Assembly (NCBI GenBank): GCA_021555105.2
Contig: CP134604.1
Coordinates: 1,488,001-1,552,000, forward strand
Source: Thalassospiraceae bacterium LMO-JJ14
GTDB taxonomy: Bacteria > Pseudomonadota > Alphaproteobacteria > Rhodospirillales > Casp-alpha2
DNA length: 64,000 nt
Direction: 5' to 3'
Below, piece by piece: positions 6,964 through 55,294 of the stretch (the first letter of the stretch is position 1; every line of letters starts with the position of its first letter). Below the pieces are notes generated by a model. The model saw only the letters and a list, made by a program, of their open reading frames with translations. It was not told the origin of the DNA and did not search any database. A program made the translations under genes and the position numbers.

Positions 6964-7761
6964 TCAGCGCGTCAGGCGGATTGCGGCGATGTTCATTTCC
7001 CCCGGCAACTGCCCGCCGCGGCTTTTCGCCGCCGCCTGCACGGCGACACCGATATAGCGGATGTCCATCTTCGCGGGGTCGTCTTCGGGCCACACCTGGC
7101 GGTGGATGAGCGACAGATCGACGGTATCGACCCACCAGCGGTTGGCCTGCTCAGGGCCGCCGCGAGCGATATAACGCGCACTTTCCGGACGGTCCTCGTC
7201 GATCCTTGGGCCGACGACGCTGCCGCGCCCGAGCGCGGTTCCGTTCCAGACCATCTGGATAATGCGCGTCACCTTGCCGTCGCCGCCGAAGGACCACCAT
7301 GATTTGCCGGCTTTCTTACCGGGACCGACGAGGCCGACAATGATGCGCACCGGGTGTGCGCTCCCCCCTGCGATATGCCCGGGGGGCTGCATGTGCCATG
7401 CCCAGCTCAGATACGGTGTCGCCAGCAACGAGGCGTTGGTATGGCGCAGTAAGGCAAACGGCGTGCTGGCGGGTTTGACGCCGAGGGCGCGGAAGCGATC
7501 GATCTGATGAATGGCCAGCGCGCCCGGCGGCATTTCGCCGGATATTTCCCAGCCGGGCGGGATTTCGCCCTGGCTGACGGCTTCGATAAAGCGCTGATCC
7601 GGGCCAAGGACGCTCAACGTGCCGCCGAGTGGCACGGCGTCGCGGGGCGGTGTGCAGCCGGCGGCGGACAATATCACCAGCAACAAAACAAGCATAAAGG
7701 ATCGCCACGTGTGAACCGGCGTGGCCCGGCGACCGCCGGCGCGGGCTTTCACGGCGGACAT
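6964..7761 (-). CDS. Putative lipoprotein, DUF3047-like
   Basis: A 265-residue envelope protein with no known activity. A hydrophobic segment ending in LSAAGC (C36) looks like a lipoprotein signal with a lipobox. The body has WAWHMQ, a possible VRIIVGL strand, IIQMVWNG and a late IRYIGVAVQ segment, a pattern I associate with DUF3047, a beta-rich family of unknown function. Its ATG overlaps the stop codon of the M48 protease gene (TAATG, one shared base), which fixes the start and suggests translational coupling and a shared function at the outer membrane. An internal ATG at 7695 is the only alternative start. Confidence 0.62.
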   Translation of the reverse strand: MSAVKARAGGRRATPVHTWRSFMLVLLLVILSAAGCTPPRDAVPLGGTLSVLGPDQRFIEAVSQGEIPPGWEISGEMPPGALAIHQIDRFRALGVKPASTPFALLRHTNASLLATPYLSWAWHMQPPGHIAGGSAHPVRIIVGLVGPGKKAGKSWWSFGGDGKVTRIIQMVWNGTALGRGSVVGPRIDEDRPESARYIARGGPEQANRWWVDTVDLSLIHRQVWPEDDPAKMDIRYIGVAVQAAAKSRGGQLPGEMNIAAIRLTR

Positions 7762-9125
7762 TATTTCCGGTTCTTCAGGGCCAGAAGCAGGTCTTCAGCC
7801 TGCAGCCATTCCGGCGATCCGCGCGGGAACATTTCGGCGGCACGCCCGGCATGAAACCGAACTTCCGATTCCTCGCCCCGGCGGATGGCGGATTCCGCCA
7901 GCGCCAGCGAACTGCGGCCGATATCGCCGAGTTTGCCATAGGCAATGCCGAGATACCGCCATGCGGCAGCTGATTCCTTGTTCCGCGACAGGCCGAATTT
8001 AAGATGCTCGACGGCTTCTTCCAGGTCTTCCTTGCGCTGGCTTTCGATCAGGATCTGGGCAAATTCTGTGCGCAGCAAAGGTTCTTCGGGAAGAAGTTCC
8101 ACAGCGCGGCGAAAGGGCGGCAGGGCTTCTTCGATCTTGCCGTCGCCAAATAGGATTTGCCCTTTGAATTCGAGGAAATACGGATCGTCGGGGATGGTCT
8201 GCAGAAGCGAATCCAGTTCGGCAACGGCTTTTGCCGTTTCCGCAGAGCGCGAATAGGCGAAGGCCCGCGCGTAGCGTGCCGGGACGGACGTGTCTTGCAC
8301 CGGGTAGCGGCGAAGCGTCAGGGCCGGTTGCTCGAAATATCCGACCAGCTTCGCCTGGGTGCGGGCAAAGGCAGCATCCAGTGACGGTTCGGTGGCTTTG
8401 TCACTGTTGGACGAGCGGGCGACATGCGCACGCATGGCCTGGATACGGTCTTCGGAAAGCGGGTGGGTGCGCGCATACGGATCCTGGCTGGCGCTGGTCA
8501 GGAGTTCCTGACCCTCTAGTATTTCCATGAATTCAAGCAGGCCGCGTGCCGACTGGCCTGTATTGTCGAGGGCCGTCAGGGCCGCCTGGTCGGCGGAGTT
8601 TTCCTGCGTTCTCGAGAACGACAGAAAGCCCCGGGTCGCCGCTTGCTGGCCGCCGGCGACGATCGCCCCGCCGATATCGCCCCGGCCTGTGCCGATCCCG
8701 GCGGCAACGCCGATGATGGTCGCTATCAGGGCGGTTGCAGAGCCTTGCTGCTGTGCCTTGCCGAGGCGGCTCAGGTGCCCGCCCGCGATGTGGCCGGTTT
8801 CGTGTGCGATAACGCCGATCACCTGTGCGGCGTTATCGGCGCGCATCAGCAAGCCCGTATTCATGAACAAACGCTGGCCATCGGCAACAAAAGCGTTAAG
8901 TGTCTTGTCGTTAACGAGATGGATCGAAACAGATGCCGGTGTAAGTCCGGCTGCGCGGAAAAGTGGCGTTGCCATCTTGCGAATGGTATCTTCGATTTCG
9001 GCATCCCTGATGAGCGGCAAACCTTGAGCCCGCGCGGGCGGAGAAACCGACGCAGAAAGAATGACGACAATGAAAATACTAAAAAAGAAGCCTGATTTCA
9101 GCACGCGCTTCACCCTGGGAAACAT
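7761..9125 (-). CDS. bepA: BepA-like periplasmic M48 metalloprotease with TPR domain
   Basis: Exported zinc protease of 454 residues. A signal peptide (1-33) ends PPARAQ. The zinc site is H108-E109-T-G-H112 (VIAHETGHIAGGH) with the third ligand E175 in the TQENSADQAAL motif. A glycine/alanine-rich segment about 128-160 is the family's membrane-associated region. Residues about 270-450 form TPR-like helices (PDDPYFLEFKGQ, WRYLGIAYGKLGD). E. coli BepA degrades or assists stalled LptD/BAM substrates at the outer membrane. It begins divergently from the following GGT-like gene and is coupled to the DUF3047-like gene. Confidence 0.9.
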   Translation of the reverse strand: MFPRVKRVLKSGFFFSIFIVVILSASVSPPARAQGLPLIRDAEIEDTIRKMATPLFRAAGLTPASVSIHLVNDKTLNAFVADGQRLFMNTGLLMRADNAAQVIGVIAHETGHIAGGHLSRLGKAQQQGSATALIATIIGVAAGIGTGRGDIGGAIVAGGQQAATRGFLSFSRTQENSADQAALTALDNTGQSARGLLEFMEILEGQELLTSASQDPYARTHPLSEDRIQAMRAHVARSSNSDKATEPSLDAAFARTQAKLVGYFEQPALTLRRYPVQDTSVPARYARAFAYSRSAETAKAVAELDSLLQTIPDDPYFLEFKGQILFGDGKIEEALPPFRRAVELLPEEPLLRTEFAQILIESQRKEDLEEAVEHLKFGLSRNKESAAAWRYLGIAYGKLGDIGRSSLALAESAIRRGEESEVRFHAGRAAEMFPRGSPEWLQAEDLLLALKNRK

Positions 9126-9159
9126 AATAGAACGTAGTCACGCAACAGTTTGTCGTCAA

Positions 9160-10806
9160 ATGACGGATATGTCATTTGCGCTGAACGCACGCAGGATCAT
9201 CCCCTTATGCCTGTCAGCGGCGGTTCTCGCCGCGTGCGGGAGTTCGGACGAGGAAGTGGTGACCCGGGGGACACTCGGGTACGTATCCGGGTCCCTGGGC
9301 GTGGTCTCCGTCGAAGAACCGCAGGCGGCTTTGGTGGCGCGCGACATACTGTCGGCGGGGGGCACCGCGGCGGATGCGGCGGCGGCCATCGGCTTTACGC
9401 TGGCGGTGACCATGCCGTCTTCGGCCAGTCTTGGCGGTGGCGGGGTCTGCATTGCCCGCGATGACCGCGGCGAGAAACCCAAAGTCATCGATTTCCTGCC
9501 GCGTGGACCGAAGCTGGCGTCCAGAAATACCGAACGCCCGAGCGCCGTTCCCGGCATGCCGCGCGGACTTTTCCTGCTGCATTCCAGATACGGTGCCTTG
9601 AAATGGGGGCAGGTGATCGCGCCGGCGGAAAATCTGGCGCGCTTCGGCTATAATATGCCGCGCGCCTTCGCGGCCGAGTTTTCAAAGGTTTCCGATGTTC
9701 TTCTGCGCGACCCGGTAATGGCCCGTGTCTTCAGCAACTCGAAAGGCAAGGCGCTTGGCGAAGGGCAATTCATCAAGCAGTCGGAGCTTGCCGCCACGCT
9801 TGGGCGTATGCGCATCCGCGGCATCGGCGAGTTTTATCAGGGTGCCGACGCCAGAAAGTTCACCGAAGCTGTACTTCAGGCAGGCGGTTCACTCAGTTTC
9901 GAGGATATGCGCAATTTCCTGCCGGTCATTCGCGACCCGGTTTCATTCCCGGGTGTCAGAAATACGATGTGGCATTTTGCCGGCCCGCCGGCCGCCGGTG
10001 GCGCCGTTGCCGCCGAGATGATGGCAATTTTAATGACCGGCCAGCTTTTCAAGGGGGCCGACGATGACGAACGCGAGCATCTGCTGGTCGAGGCCGCGAA
10101 ACGCGCCTTTGTCGAACGCATGAAAAACATGCAGGCCGACGGCACGTACCGCCAGGGACCCGAGGCACGTGTCGGCGAGGATTATGTCGATTCCGTCGAC
10201 GATACGATCAGTTTCGATAAGGCGACGCCGCTGAATACCCTGATCCAGACTCCGACCGACTGGCCCGAGACACCGTCAGCGGTCAGTTTCTCGGTCATGG
10301 ATACGCGCGGCGGGGCGGTCGCCTGTACGCTGACCATGAACAATCTGTTCGGCACCGGCCGCATGGCTGACGGCTTCGGCATTATCCTGGCGGCCGCCCC
10401 CGATACGCGCGGGCGGACCTATACACCGCTCGGCCCGGCCCTGTTGACCAGCGAATTGTTCAATGTCAGCTATATGGCCGCTGCCGCTTCCGGCGGCGTG
10501 ACGGCACCGACGTCGCTCAGCAATGTTCTGGCACGAACCGTTTCGGGGCCGCAAACCCTGGGTGAGGCGGTGGCCGCGCCGCGCACCCATTACGCCGCCG
10601 CGCCGGATATCGTGTATGTCGAGCCGGGCATGCCGGCGGAAATCGTCGCGGCGCTTCGTAAGCGCGGCCATGAAGTCGTGGCGACAAAATCCATCGGCAG
10701 GGTAGCCGCCGTGCAATGCCCGCAAGGCATGCCGAACGAGGATACGCCGGTGTGTTTCGGCGCCGCCGACCCGCGTGGCTTCGGCTTGGCCATCGGCGGG
10801 AACTGA
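9160..10806 (+). CDS. Gamma-glutamyltransferase-like lipoprotein, probably non-canonical active site
   Basis: 548-residue exported protein. The N-terminus has a lipoprotein signal ending VLAAC (C25). The GGT fold is clear: EEPQAALVARDILSAGGTAADAAAA and SSASLGGGGVCI match the large-subunit start, and AVACTLTMNNLFGTG matches the small subunit. Canonical GGTs self-cleave before the first Thr of a Thr-Thr-His motif; here the aligned stretch reads P372-S-A-V-S-F-S-V379, with no Thr at that place. It may be inactive, or use Ser373 after a shifted cleavage. ATG 9160 and 9169 are alternative starts; earlier ATGs would overlap the opposite gene. A PLP aminotransferase follows 4 bases later. Confidence 0.8.
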   Translation: MTDMSFALNARRIIPLCLSAAVLAACGSSDEEVVTRGTLGYVSGSLGVVSVEEPQAALVARDILSAGGTAADAAAAIGFTLAVTMPSSASLGGGGVCIARDDRGEKPKVIDFLPRGPKLASRNTERPSAVPGMPRGLFLLHSRYGALKWGQVIAPAENLARFGYNMPRAFAAEFSKVSDVLLRDPVMARVFSNSKGKALGEGQFIKQSELAATLGRMRIRGIGEFYQGADARKFTEAVLQAGGSLSFEDMRNFLPVIRDPVSFPGVRNTMWHFAGPPAAGGAVAAEMMAILMTGQLFKGADDDEREHLLVEAAKRAFVERMKNMQADGTYRQGPEARVGEDYVDSVDDTISFDKATPLNTLIQTPTDWPETPSAVSFSVMDTRGGAVACTLTMNNLFGTGRMADGFGIILAAAPDTRGRTYTPLGPALLTSELFNVSYMAAAASGGVTAPTSLSNVLARTVSGPQTLGEAVAAPRTHYAAAPDIVYVEPGMPAEIVAALRKRGHEVVATKSIGRVAAVQCPQGMPNEDTPVCFGAADPRGFGLAIGGN

Positions 10807-19964: not shown

Positions 19965-20080
19965 ACCCCCCTCACCTAACCTCTCCCCCTTTTCAGGGGG
20001 AGAGGGATTAGCGGAACTGTGCCGATATACGTGAGTCCCTCTCCACCACAATTGTGGGGGAGAGGACAGGTGAGGGGGAA
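19965..20080. repeat. Dispersed intergenic inverted repeat, family B copy 1
   Basis: CCCCCCTCACCTAACCTCTCCCCC-type sequence on one side and its approximate complement (GGGGGAGAGGACAGGTGAGGGGG) on the other, with an inner CTCCCCC/GGGGGAG stem. The same arrangement is at 55181-55292 and a fragment at 39557. It lies between divergent lysE and prfB. Confidence 0.75.
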
Positions 20081-49363: not shown

Positions 49364-49440
49364 CGTCTTTTCCTACGGAAAAATCTTCATCCCAAATTCA
49401 TTACTGGAAACTGAAACTAGAAAAATGTTTCAATTCCTTT

Positions 49441-49875
49441 ATGGCTGATACACTTACACCAAAACAGCGTTCTGAACGTATGGCCCGAATCAGGGCGCAA
49501 GATACAAAGCCGGAGATGGTAGTTCGAAGGATTATTCATTCCCATGGGTATAGATTTCGATTACATGCAAAAGAACTGCCAGGAAAGCCAGATATTGTAC
49601 TTCGCCCCCGAAAAAAGGCTATATTTGTGCATGGATGCTTCTGGCATCGGCATCCCAATTGCTCGTTAGCGCGTCTTCCAAAGTCTCGTCTTGATTTTTG
49701 GGAGCCGAAGTTGGAGCAAAATAGAAAGCGAGATTTAAAAAATCAATGTGAGCTTAAGATATTAGGATGGGATTTCTTGGTGGTTTGGGAATGTGAGTTA
49801 GGAGATATGAACGCGCTCAAATCGCGTTTATTGGATTTTCTTAAAGCCGATATTGGAGACCTTAAAAGTTGTTAA
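49441..49875 (+). CDS. vsr: Vsr-type very-short-patch mismatch endonuclease
   Basis: Nicks beside T:G mismatches left when 5-methylcytosine deaminates. 144 residues. Catalytic D51 in GKPDIVLRPR, C66-F-W-H69 and R-H71-P-N-C74 zinc-type cluster, and the Arg-rich early helix SERMARIRAQDTKPEM. AT-richer and with different codon use from the genes before it. Its stop overlaps the TTG start of the methyltransferase by seven bases, so the two are expressed together. A paired C5-methyltransferase supplies the very lesions Vsr repairs. Confidence 0.95.
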   Translation: MADTLTPKQRSERMARIRAQDTKPEMVVRRIIHSHGYRFRLHAKELPGKPDIVLRPRKKAIFVHGCFWHRHPNCSLARLPKSRLDFWEPKLEQNRKRDLKNQCELKILGWDFLVVWECELGDMNALKSRLLDFLKADIGDLKSC

Positions 49876-51086
49876 GCTCGGTGGAATTGTTTGCGGGTGC
49901 TGGTGGCTTGGCTATGGGAGCGAGCTTGGCGGGGTTTTCTTCTAAAGCTGTTGTCGAATGGGACCGTTGGGCTGCGGACACTATCCGCGAAAACGCGAAT
50001 GAAGGTTTCCCAATGGTATCTGATTGGCCGCTTTTTGAGGGCGATGTTAGAGATTACGATTATGACTCGATCGCAGAAAAAATTGATTTGGTTGCAGGAG
50101 GCCCGCCTTGTCAGCCGTTCTCTATGGGGGGGAAACATCGTGCTCACTTAGATGAGCGTGATATGTTTCCTGCTGCAGTTGGTGTCGTTCGCGAACTTCG
50201 ACCTAGGGCGTTTCTGTTCGAGAATGTTAAAGGCTTAACACGATCTACGTTCTCAAACTATTTTCAGTATATCATTCTTCAGCTTACTTTCCCGGAGATC
50301 ATTCGAAGAGCGAGTGAGAGTGCTCTAGATCATTTTGCTCGGCTTGAAAAAGAAAAGACGTCAGGCAAGCGAAGGGGATTAACTTATGAAGTGGTCTTTC
50401 GAGTTGTTAATGCTGCCAATTATGGAGTCCCGCAAAAAAGGGAACGTGTGTTTATTGTCGGTTTTCGCCACGATATAGGAGTTAACTGGTCATTTCCCGA
50501 CGAAACCCATAGCTATGATGCTTTGTTGGAGGACCAATGGATCTCAGAAGCCTACTGGGATCGGCACGCTGTCTCGAAGCGCATGCGACCAAAACTGGAC
50601 CAAAAACTAATCAAGCGCGTCGAACAAATAAAGAAATCAAACGATAGACCACTAGCATCTTATAAGCCTTGGAGGACAGTAAGAGACGCGTTAGTTGATA
50701 TGCCTGATCCCCGCCGTAATGCAGCAGGCTTCCACAATCACAAATTCCAGCCAGGAGCGAGAGCTTATCCGGGGCATACAGGTAGCCCAATTGATTTGCC
50801 ATCCAAAGCGCTTAAGGCGGGTGTTCACGGGGTTCCTGGTGGAGAAAATATGATGGTTTTACCGGAAGGCGCCGTCAGATATTTCACCGTTCGCGAAGCA
50901 GCACGCTTACAAACATTTCCCGATGGATACAAATTTCATGGCTCTTGGAGCGAGACAATGCGGCAGTTGGGGAATGCTGTTCCTGTGCGTTTGGGGCAAA
51001 TTATGGCCTCTAGCGTAGCGCAAGAATTGGCACTGCATTCTGAAAATGAACTTAAAAGAACAATCATGCAGTTAGCAAAAGCATGA
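49869..51086 (+). CDS. C5-cytosine DNA methyltransferase
   Basis: Modification enzyme of 405 residues. Motif I ELFAGAGGLAMG, motif IV GGPPCQPFS with catalytic C81, motif VI ENV (119-121), motif VIII QKRERVFIVG, and motif X RQLGNAVPV are in order; the target-recognition region between motifs VIII and IX fixes the sequence methylated but cannot be read from it directly. TTG at 49869 gives the overlap with vsr; GTG at 49881 is an alternative. Its stop overlaps the nuclease start by four bases. As partner of an Eco29kI-like enzyme it should methylate CCGCGG. Confidence 0.94.
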   Translation: MLSSVELFAGAGGLAMGASLAGFSSKAVVEWDRWAADTIRENANEGFPMVSDWPLFEGDVRDYDYDSIAEKIDLVAGGPPCQPFSMGGKHRAHLDERDMFPAAVGVVRELRPRAFLFENVKGLTRSTFSNYFQYIILQLTFPEIIRRASESALDHFARLEKEKTSGKRRGLTYEVVFRVVNAANYGVPQKRERVFIVGFRHDIGVNWSFPDETHSYDALLEDQWISEAYWDRHAVSKRMRPKLDQKLIKRVEQIKKSNDRPLASYKPWRTVRDALVDMPDPRRNAAGFHNHKFQPGARAYPGHTGSPIDLPSKALKAGVHGVPGGENMMVLPEGAVRYFTVREAARLQTFPDGYKFHGSWSETMRQLGNAVPVRLGQIMASSVAQELALHSENELKRTIMQLAKA

Positions 51087-51697
51087 ATGAAATTGAACCA
51101 TATAATCCTCTAGACAAACGTCATCTGGGCGAGAGCGTTGCAGACGCATTGCTTCGAAGCGCACCGGAACGGATAGGCAAGATTCAGAAATTTCGCGGTG
51201 CAGGAATTTACGCTATTTATTACGTGGGAAATTTTGAACTCTATTCACCGATTGTTATTAGGAATCGAAAAAACCGATTTGATTGTCCGATATATGTTGG
51301 AAAGGCAGTTCCCGCCGGTGCTCGGAAAGGAGATTTCGGGCTAGGCCTTGATCCCGGCACGGCGCTGTTTAACCGCTTGAATGAGCACGGCAAAAGTATT
51401 GAACAGGCAGACGATCTCGCGTTGGATGATTTCTTTTGTAGGTATTTAGTAGTTGATGATATTTGGATTCCGTTGGGGGAGAGCCTTCTGATCTCAAAAT
51501 TTCAGCCGCTATGGAATAATTGGGTAGATGGCTTCGGAAATCACGACCCCGGTAGGGGGCGATATAACCAAGAGCGGTCAAGATGGGATGTCCTGCATCC
51601 GGGGCGCCCGTTCGCAGCAAAGTGTGCGGATCGAAAAGAGTCACTTGAACAAATTAGAGCTGATGTTCGTGCTCGGCTTCGGGACGCTCACGATTAA
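51083..51697 (+). CDS. Eco29kI-like type II restriction endonuclease (GIY-YIG)
   Basis: 204-residue nuclease with the GIY-YIG fold. Aligned with Eco29kI from memory, catalytic residues fall at Y43 (GAGIYAIYYVG), Y71 (PIYVGKAVPAG), R98 and H102 (NRLNEHG), E133 and N145 (PLWNNWVDGFGNH), with the same spacing, and WDVLHPGR near the end. Eco29kI and relatives cut CCGC^GG. The ATG lies in the methyltransferase stop (ATGA). Together with the two genes before it forms a complete type II system; protecting against phage is the expected role. Confidence 0.93.
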   Translation: MNEIEPYNPLDKRHLGESVADALLRSAPERIGKIQKFRGAGIYAIYYVGNFELYSPIVIRNRKNRFDCPIYVGKAVPAGARKGDFGLGLDPGTALFNRLNEHGKSIEQADDLALDDFFCRYLVVDDIWIPLGESLLISKFQPLWNNWVDGFGNHDPGRGRYNQERSRWDVLHPGRPFAAKCADRKESLEQIRADVRARLRDAHD

Positions 51698-51730
51698 TCT
51701 GGTTTCCAAGCACGTGTTGCTTCGAGGGGC

Positions 51731-52327
51731 TTAGCGCACGCTCTCGAAATAAACCGCCAGCGCGACGACCATCAGCATGGCGAGGGCCATGGCGATGTTG
51801 ACGCGGCGGTGCCCCTTGGCGCCCAGCGGCAGGCGTTTCAGCGATGCGCCCATGTAGTTCCACAGCAGGTGGATCGGAAACGACATCGACGAGAAGATGA
51901 CGAACTTCATGGCGATCTCTACCGCATAGCTTTCGGGATAGAAATTGAAGCCGCCGACGATGGTGGTAAACACCGCATAGGCCTTGGGATTGATCAGCGA
52001 CAGGGTGGCGCCGTTCACGAACCCGAGCGGCTTGTCGGTTTCGATGATGGCTATGCCGCCGCCCGACGATGCAATCCGCCACGCGAGATACAACAGATAG
52101 CAGAGCGATGCGCCCAGCATTACTTCGCGCACATAGGGGATCTGGAACACCAGCGCGGTCAGGCCGCTGGCGACCATGCCCATGACCACCAGCGATCCGA
52201 CGACGACGCCCACCAGATACGGCACCCCGGCACGAAAGCCGTAGGCCGCTGCATTCCCGGCAACGGTCAGGACGCCCGGCCCCGGCGTGATGATCAGAAA
52301 GAAAACGGCGGTGATGAAGGTCAGCAC
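51731..52327 (-). CDS. LysE-family exporter
   Basis: Inner-membrane amino-acid exporter of 198 residues, about six helices. It opens TAVFFLIITPGPGVLTVAGNAAAYGFRAG, with the TPGPG signature, and has the second-half NPKAYAVFTTIVGGF. Distinct from the LysE protein at 19276 (different loops). It lies four bases after the stop of the CurA-like reductase on the same strand and is probably co-transcribed. Substrate unknown. It closes the boundary of the restriction-modification island. Confidence 0.9.
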   Translation of the reverse strand: MLTFITAVFFLIITPGPGVLTVAGNAAAYGFRAGVPYLVGVVVGSLVVMGMVASGLTALVFQIPYVREVMLGASLCYLLYLAWRIASSGGGIAIIETDKPLGFVNGATLSLINPKAYAVFTTIVGGFNFYPESYAVEIAMKFVIFSSMSFPIHLLWNYMGASLKRLPLGAKGHRRVNIAMALAMLMVVALAVYFESVR

Positions 52328-55180: not shown

Positions 55181-55292
55181 GCCCCCCCTCACCTGTCCTC
55201 TCCCCCACTGCGTTGGGGGGAGGGACTCACGGACCGATGCACAGCTTTTCTTATCCCTCTCCCCTTTTAGGGGGAGAGGTTAGGTGAGGGGG
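55181..55292. repeat. Dispersed intergenic inverted repeat, family B copy 2
   Basis: GCCCCCCCTCACCTGTCCTCTCCCCC at one end and CTCTCCCCTTTTAGGGGGAGAGGTTAGGTGAGGGGG at the other, with inner stems, closely like 19965-20080. Lies between cytochrome c and dmdA. Confidence 0.75.
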
Positions 55293-55294
55293 CT

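Follow-up and report, generated by a model that had tools for sequence, protein, structure and literature searches.

Eco29kI, encoded by plasmid pECO29, recognizes CCGCGG, and its methyltransferase places 5-methylcytosine (5mC) at the second C of this site (PMC3039593). The nuclease is a GIY-YIG enzyme with six active-site residues, five of which have been tested by mutation, mutants of the sixth (Y76) not being obtainable (PMC1952068). A survey of REBASE listed, across 91 species, 310 putative 5mC CCGCGG systems, of which some are accompanied by V genes (PMC10855626). Caulobacter cells without the methyltransferase ScmA show an SOS response caused by VsrA, and a stabilizing effect of vsr genes on methyltransferase genes was proposed by the authors of that study (PMC12907096). 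The window, by which we mean the whole analysed stretch of 64,000 nucleotides, contains a cassette that shares with Eco29kI the GIY-YIG nuclease with its six active-site residues, the overlapping genes, and a methyltransferase that is similar over its whole length. In Eco29kI the nuclease gene is first and the methyltransferase gene second with no vsr, whereas the order in the window is vsr-methyltransferase-nuclease, as follows.

49364..49440, + strand: AT-rich leader of 77 nt from the ferredoxin gene to vsr (sequence)
49441..49875, + strand: vsr, 144 aa, very-short-patch T:G mismatch endonuclease (profile and structure matches)
49869..49875, + strand: overlap of vsr and the methyltransferase gene, 7 nt (sequence)
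49869..51086, + strand: C5-cytosine DNA methyltransferase, 405 aa, TTG start (profile matches and motifs)
51083..51086, + strand: overlap of methyltransferase stop and nuclease start, ATGA, 4 nt (sequence)
51083..51697, + strand: Eco29kI-family GIY-YIG restriction endonuclease, 204 aa (profile, structure match and active-site residues)
51720..51733, no strand assigned: right junction GAGGGGCTTAG, abutting the lysE stop, an apparent remnant of a palindromic repeat end

The initial annotation described three genes in this order with overlaps of 7 and 4 nt, and the sequence confirms it, with all three on one strand: the vsr stop codon TAA (49873-49875) overlaps the methyltransferase TTG start at 49869, and the methyltransferase TGA, ending at 51086, overlaps the nuclease ATG at 51083. 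The left edge given there, 49365, is instead in the intergenic spacer, and vsr, collinear with E. coli Vsr, has its ATG at 49441 (MADTLTPKQRSERM). For the methyltransferase a TTG start is credible, given that the first alternative in frame, a GTG at codon 5, is only three residues short of motif I (FAGAGG), with later ones falling within or beyond it. All three genes are intact with open frames, and the nuclease gene is single-copy in the genome. There is no obvious ribosome-binding site for the nuclease start, no match to a sigma-70-like promoter within the 77-nt leader, and no convincing promoter upstream of the cassette.

Profile searches match Vsr to PF03852 (1.4e-29, 102 bits against a curated cut-off of 27) and TIGR00632 (140 bits against 97.9), and a structure-database search matches it to E. 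coli Vsr (PDB 1cw0) at 7.5e-26. The methyltransferase matches PF00145 (4.9e-59) and TIGR00675, its relatives of solved structure are the HhaI and HaeIII methyltransferases, and motifs FAGAGG, PPCQP, ENV and GNAVP are all present in this C5 enzyme, whose gene adjoins that of the nuclease. It is 49% identical to the partner of a near-identical Eco29kI nuclease (47% in the target-recognition region). The nuclease matches PF09517 (1.2e-68, 230.5 bits against a curated cut-off of 30.8) and Eco29kIR (PDB 3mx4) at 8.1e-41; no better nuclease family was found, and the proposed family assignments and the Eco29kI kinship are supported. Eco29kI residues Y49, Y76, R104, H108, E142 and N154 correspond to Y43, Y71, R98, H102, E133 and N145, such that the catalytic set reported earlier is present in full (6/6); the identical spacing also reported is only partly so, the intervals being 28/27/4/31/12 here versus 27/28/4/34/12 in Eco29kI (two of five the same). 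Residues 1-34 align with other methyltransferase-first nucleases and not with Eco29kI. From these similarities the nuclease probably cleaves CCGC/GG in the manner of Eco29kI.

The composition of the cassette is foreign, and measurement bears out the AT-richer block noted at the outset, with 46% GC in a 61% GC region. Its GC fraction is 0.463, whereas 25 blocks of the same size from other parts of the window give 0.611 +/- 0.024 (z = -6.2). The GC3 values of 0.36, 0.42 and 0.42 for vsr, methyltransferase and nuclease are about half those of nine neighbouring genes (0.78-0.85). The nuclease is absent from all seven other genomes of the genus, two of which are under 70% complete, and its occurrence is sporadic more widely, with 3/48 genomes in the family, 6/385 in the class and 13/398 in the phylum when the window's own genome is counted.

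Comparison with close relatives, which the initial annotation suggested as a check, identifies three congeners (G003, G004 and G006) with an empty site. In these, lysE comes directly after the ferredoxin gene, across a spacer of ~125 bp containing a palindromic repeat of ~110 bp (CCCCTCACCTAACCTCTCCCC...GGGGAGAGGACAGGTGAGGGG). The 2.37-kb cassette is located where these relatives have the repeat, of which only a ~10-bp remnant is present in the window; the right junction beside lysE matches the repeat end, and the relatives read GGTGAGGGGGCTA at that place. The spacer of another congener, G005, is different. The simplest reading is that the cassette inserted into, or replaced, a palindromic intergenic repeat, with loss of most of the repeat. 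This repeat family is present in all eight genomes of the genus; in the window it is intergenic and occurs twice in paired form, at ~110 bp each (19965-20080 and 55182-55294), and there are 41 half-elements in the window's genome and 8-79 in the congeners. The repeat may be a mobile palindromic element.

Insertion beside a tRNA gene is rejected, as there is none in the window, and so is arrival here by way of an integrase, since the neighbouring genes that were examined (suf-operon genes, lysE and an alcohol dehydrogenase gene) include no integrase gene. This agrees with the earlier statement that neither an integrase nor a direct repeat is evident, and no target-site duplication was found; direct and inverted repeats at the junctions are limited to 6- and 7-nt matches, which is chance level. 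The proposal of horizontal acquisition is upheld by the foreign composition, the empty site and the absence of the genes from close relatives.

We tabulated gene architectures at 32 loci, including the window, from plasmids, phages and whole genomes. Ten have the order vsr-methyltransferase-nuclease (V-M-R), among them the window, Burkholderia phage Milagro, one Paraburkholderia plasmid and seven other genomes; ten are M-R, eight R-M, and four are nuclease-only or rearranged. The R-M loci include Eco29kI and the gonococcal system, and all lack vsr. Intact vsr-positive operons are thus all methyltransferase-first (10/20 versus 0/8 R-M; Fisher p = 0.025, with the caveat that the R-M loci form one nuclease-tree group and are not independent), and in the nuclease tree the methyltransferase-first nucleases are set apart from the R-M branch. 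All 20 methyltransferase-first loci have a possible nuclease start no more than 13 nt from the methyltransferase stop, and at 13 of them stop and start could overlap by 4 nt (ATGA, GTGA or TTGA). No close relatives were found in the viral contigs, and the collection of genome contigs yielded a single relative, of the R-M type.

The vsr genes are scattered over the methyltransferase and nuclease trees, with 7-8 changes, barely better than shuffled labels, and have therefore undergone repeated gain and/or loss. The nearest methyltransferase and nuclease relatives (G152, at ~70% identity, and G215) have the operon without vsr, which is thus not an obligatory part of the cassette. Methyltransferase and nuclease distances are correlated (r = 0.49, p = 0.001), those of Vsr and methyltransferase weakly so (0.34, p = 0.02), and those of Vsr and nuclease not (0.12, p = 0.21); strict co-inheritance of the three genes is therefore rejected, vsr being the loosest part of the cassette.

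Several other arrangements were seen. At one locus of a family relative (L035, G039:C1:1323000-1342000, 7588-9795) vsr and the methyltransferase gene converge on a nuclease gene of the opposite strand, with which they are tail to tail in slight overlap; this arrangement suggests exchange of the nuclease partner. At another (L086, G500, 7230-8346) a nuclease gene is followed by a vsr fragment without the central catalytic part, and no methyltransferase was detected nearby; this is possibly a decayed cassette. Two congeners without the Eco29kI cassette (L087 in G003:C4 and L089 in G004:C11) have vsr genes of their own, next to C5 methyltransferase genes that differ between the two; one of these enzymes has an N-terminal helix-turn-helix-like extension. 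The genus thus seems to have acquired V-bearing methylation systems on several occasions. The archaeal Haloarcula virus HJTV-2 (L069) has an Eco29kI-family nuclease whose neighbours are a Trm112-like protein and an N4-cytosine methyltransferase, and the nuclease family therefore occurs with both 5mC and m4C enzymes.

We regard it as highly probable that the window contains a type II restriction-modification cassette that was acquired horizontally and belongs to the methyltransferase-first Eco29kI branch, most likely specific for CCGCGG, with coupled methyltransferase and nuclease expression and with Vsr acting in repair. Gene identity, architecture, foreign composition, the empty site and the wide, scattered occurrence support this; specificity, enzyme activity, coupling and the Vsr substrate we infer from sequence. 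The methyltransferase would generate 5mC in CCGCGG (at the second C in Eco29kI), and the nuclease would cut incoming DNA at CCGCGG sites that are not methylated. Translation of the nuclease probably depends on re-initiation by ribosomes that have finished the methyltransferase, since the nuclease start overlaps the methyltransferase stop and has no obvious ribosome-binding site; such coupling would tie restriction to modification and limit the nuclease to cells already making the methyltransferase, and no C protein would be needed. Deamination of 5mC would give a T:G mismatch, expected in CTGCGG. Vsr is expected to act on this sequence, which is not the E. coli Vsr site, and would nick the mismatch and start very-short-patch repair back to C:G.

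The same cassette could use Vsr mainly as a second stabilizing factor, with Vsr-dependent breaks adding to killing by the nuclease upon loss of methylation and penalizing cells that lose the methyltransferase. The Caulobacter result favours this role, but it concerns a solitary methyltransferase and an unlinked vsr; here the cognate nuclease already supplies that pressure, and no more than 10 of the 20 methyltransferase-first loci have vsr. We think such a role unlikely. A broader version, in which Vsr in methyltransferase-first Eco29kI-type cassettes is an exchangeable second addiction module that rewards retention of the methyltransferase, both by repairing 5mC deamination and by damaging methylation-losing cells, is slightly less probable again; if true, it would explain repeated vsr gain and loss within one cassette lineage.

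Equally doubtful is the recognition of a site other than CCGCGG, through drift of specificity between family branches. The separation of methyltransferase-first nucleases from the R-M branch, the only ~45% identity of the window nuclease to Eco29kI, and the lack of CCGCGG depletion are compatible with it. However, the methyltransferase target-recognition region is about as conserved as the remainder (47% versus 47-53% against the Eco29kI partner, and 45% versus 47-50% against the gonococcal partner), and the distant R.DraR1, 43% identical to the window nuclease over the match, also cuts CCGCGG. Methylation of CCGCGG as 5mC is probably the specificity of the cassette, judging from these alignments. 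The site occurs several times in the window, as claimed, with 36 copies versus 73.5 expected from shuffles and 1,608 in the genome; none is between 47975 and 54719, and the cassette itself has none. All 1,608 sites would have to be protected if the nuclease cuts CCGCGG. We reject this scarcity as evidence of active restriction: the ratio of CCGCGG to GGCGCC is 0.41 here versus 0.31-0.62 in relatives lacking the nuclease, with nuclease-less congeners similar and one lower, and since relatives without the system are similarly scarce it is not a restriction footprint. An inactive, degraded or silent relic, for which the failure to find a promoter and the foreign codon usage could be cited, is very improbable against three open frames, intact catalytic motifs and preserved overlaps.

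The locus is a clean case of acquisition, in which two conserved genes flank a self-contained restriction-modification cassette and relatives preserve the state before insertion. The comparison divides the Eco29kI family into two gene-order branches, with vsr an optional part restricted, within the sample, to the methyltransferase-first branch. V-M-R, M-R and R-M loci form a natural series for testing what Vsr contributes to restriction systems, a point of some interest given its harm to unmethylated Caulobacter cells (PMC12907096).

Among known systems, the cassettes of phage Milagro (OM638609) and a Paraburkholderia aromaticivorans plasmid (NZ_CP051517) have the V-M-R order and the same 4-nt M/R overlap as the window, with a 14-nt V/M overlap and 55-65% protein identity; they are near integrases and other accessory genes, whereas the window cassette stands by itself next to the suf operon. 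M-R cassettes with the ATGA overlap and 59-67% identity but, unlike the window, no vsr are found in Halomonas phage vB_HboP_4908 and Halomonas plasmid pH149-1. E. coli dcm-vsr likewise has a Vsr with the conserved catalytic region in an operon with a 5mC methyltransferase, but dcm precedes vsr, there is no nuclease, and a different site is methylated. The DraI system of Deinococcus radiodurans (R.DraR1/M.DraR1) has an Eco29kI-family nuclease, but its partner makes m4C, is not encoded adjacently, and is without vsr. Because V-M-R cassettes are also present on a phage, a plasmid and other chromosomes, that of the window is not unusual, and is a well-supported addition to a known kind.
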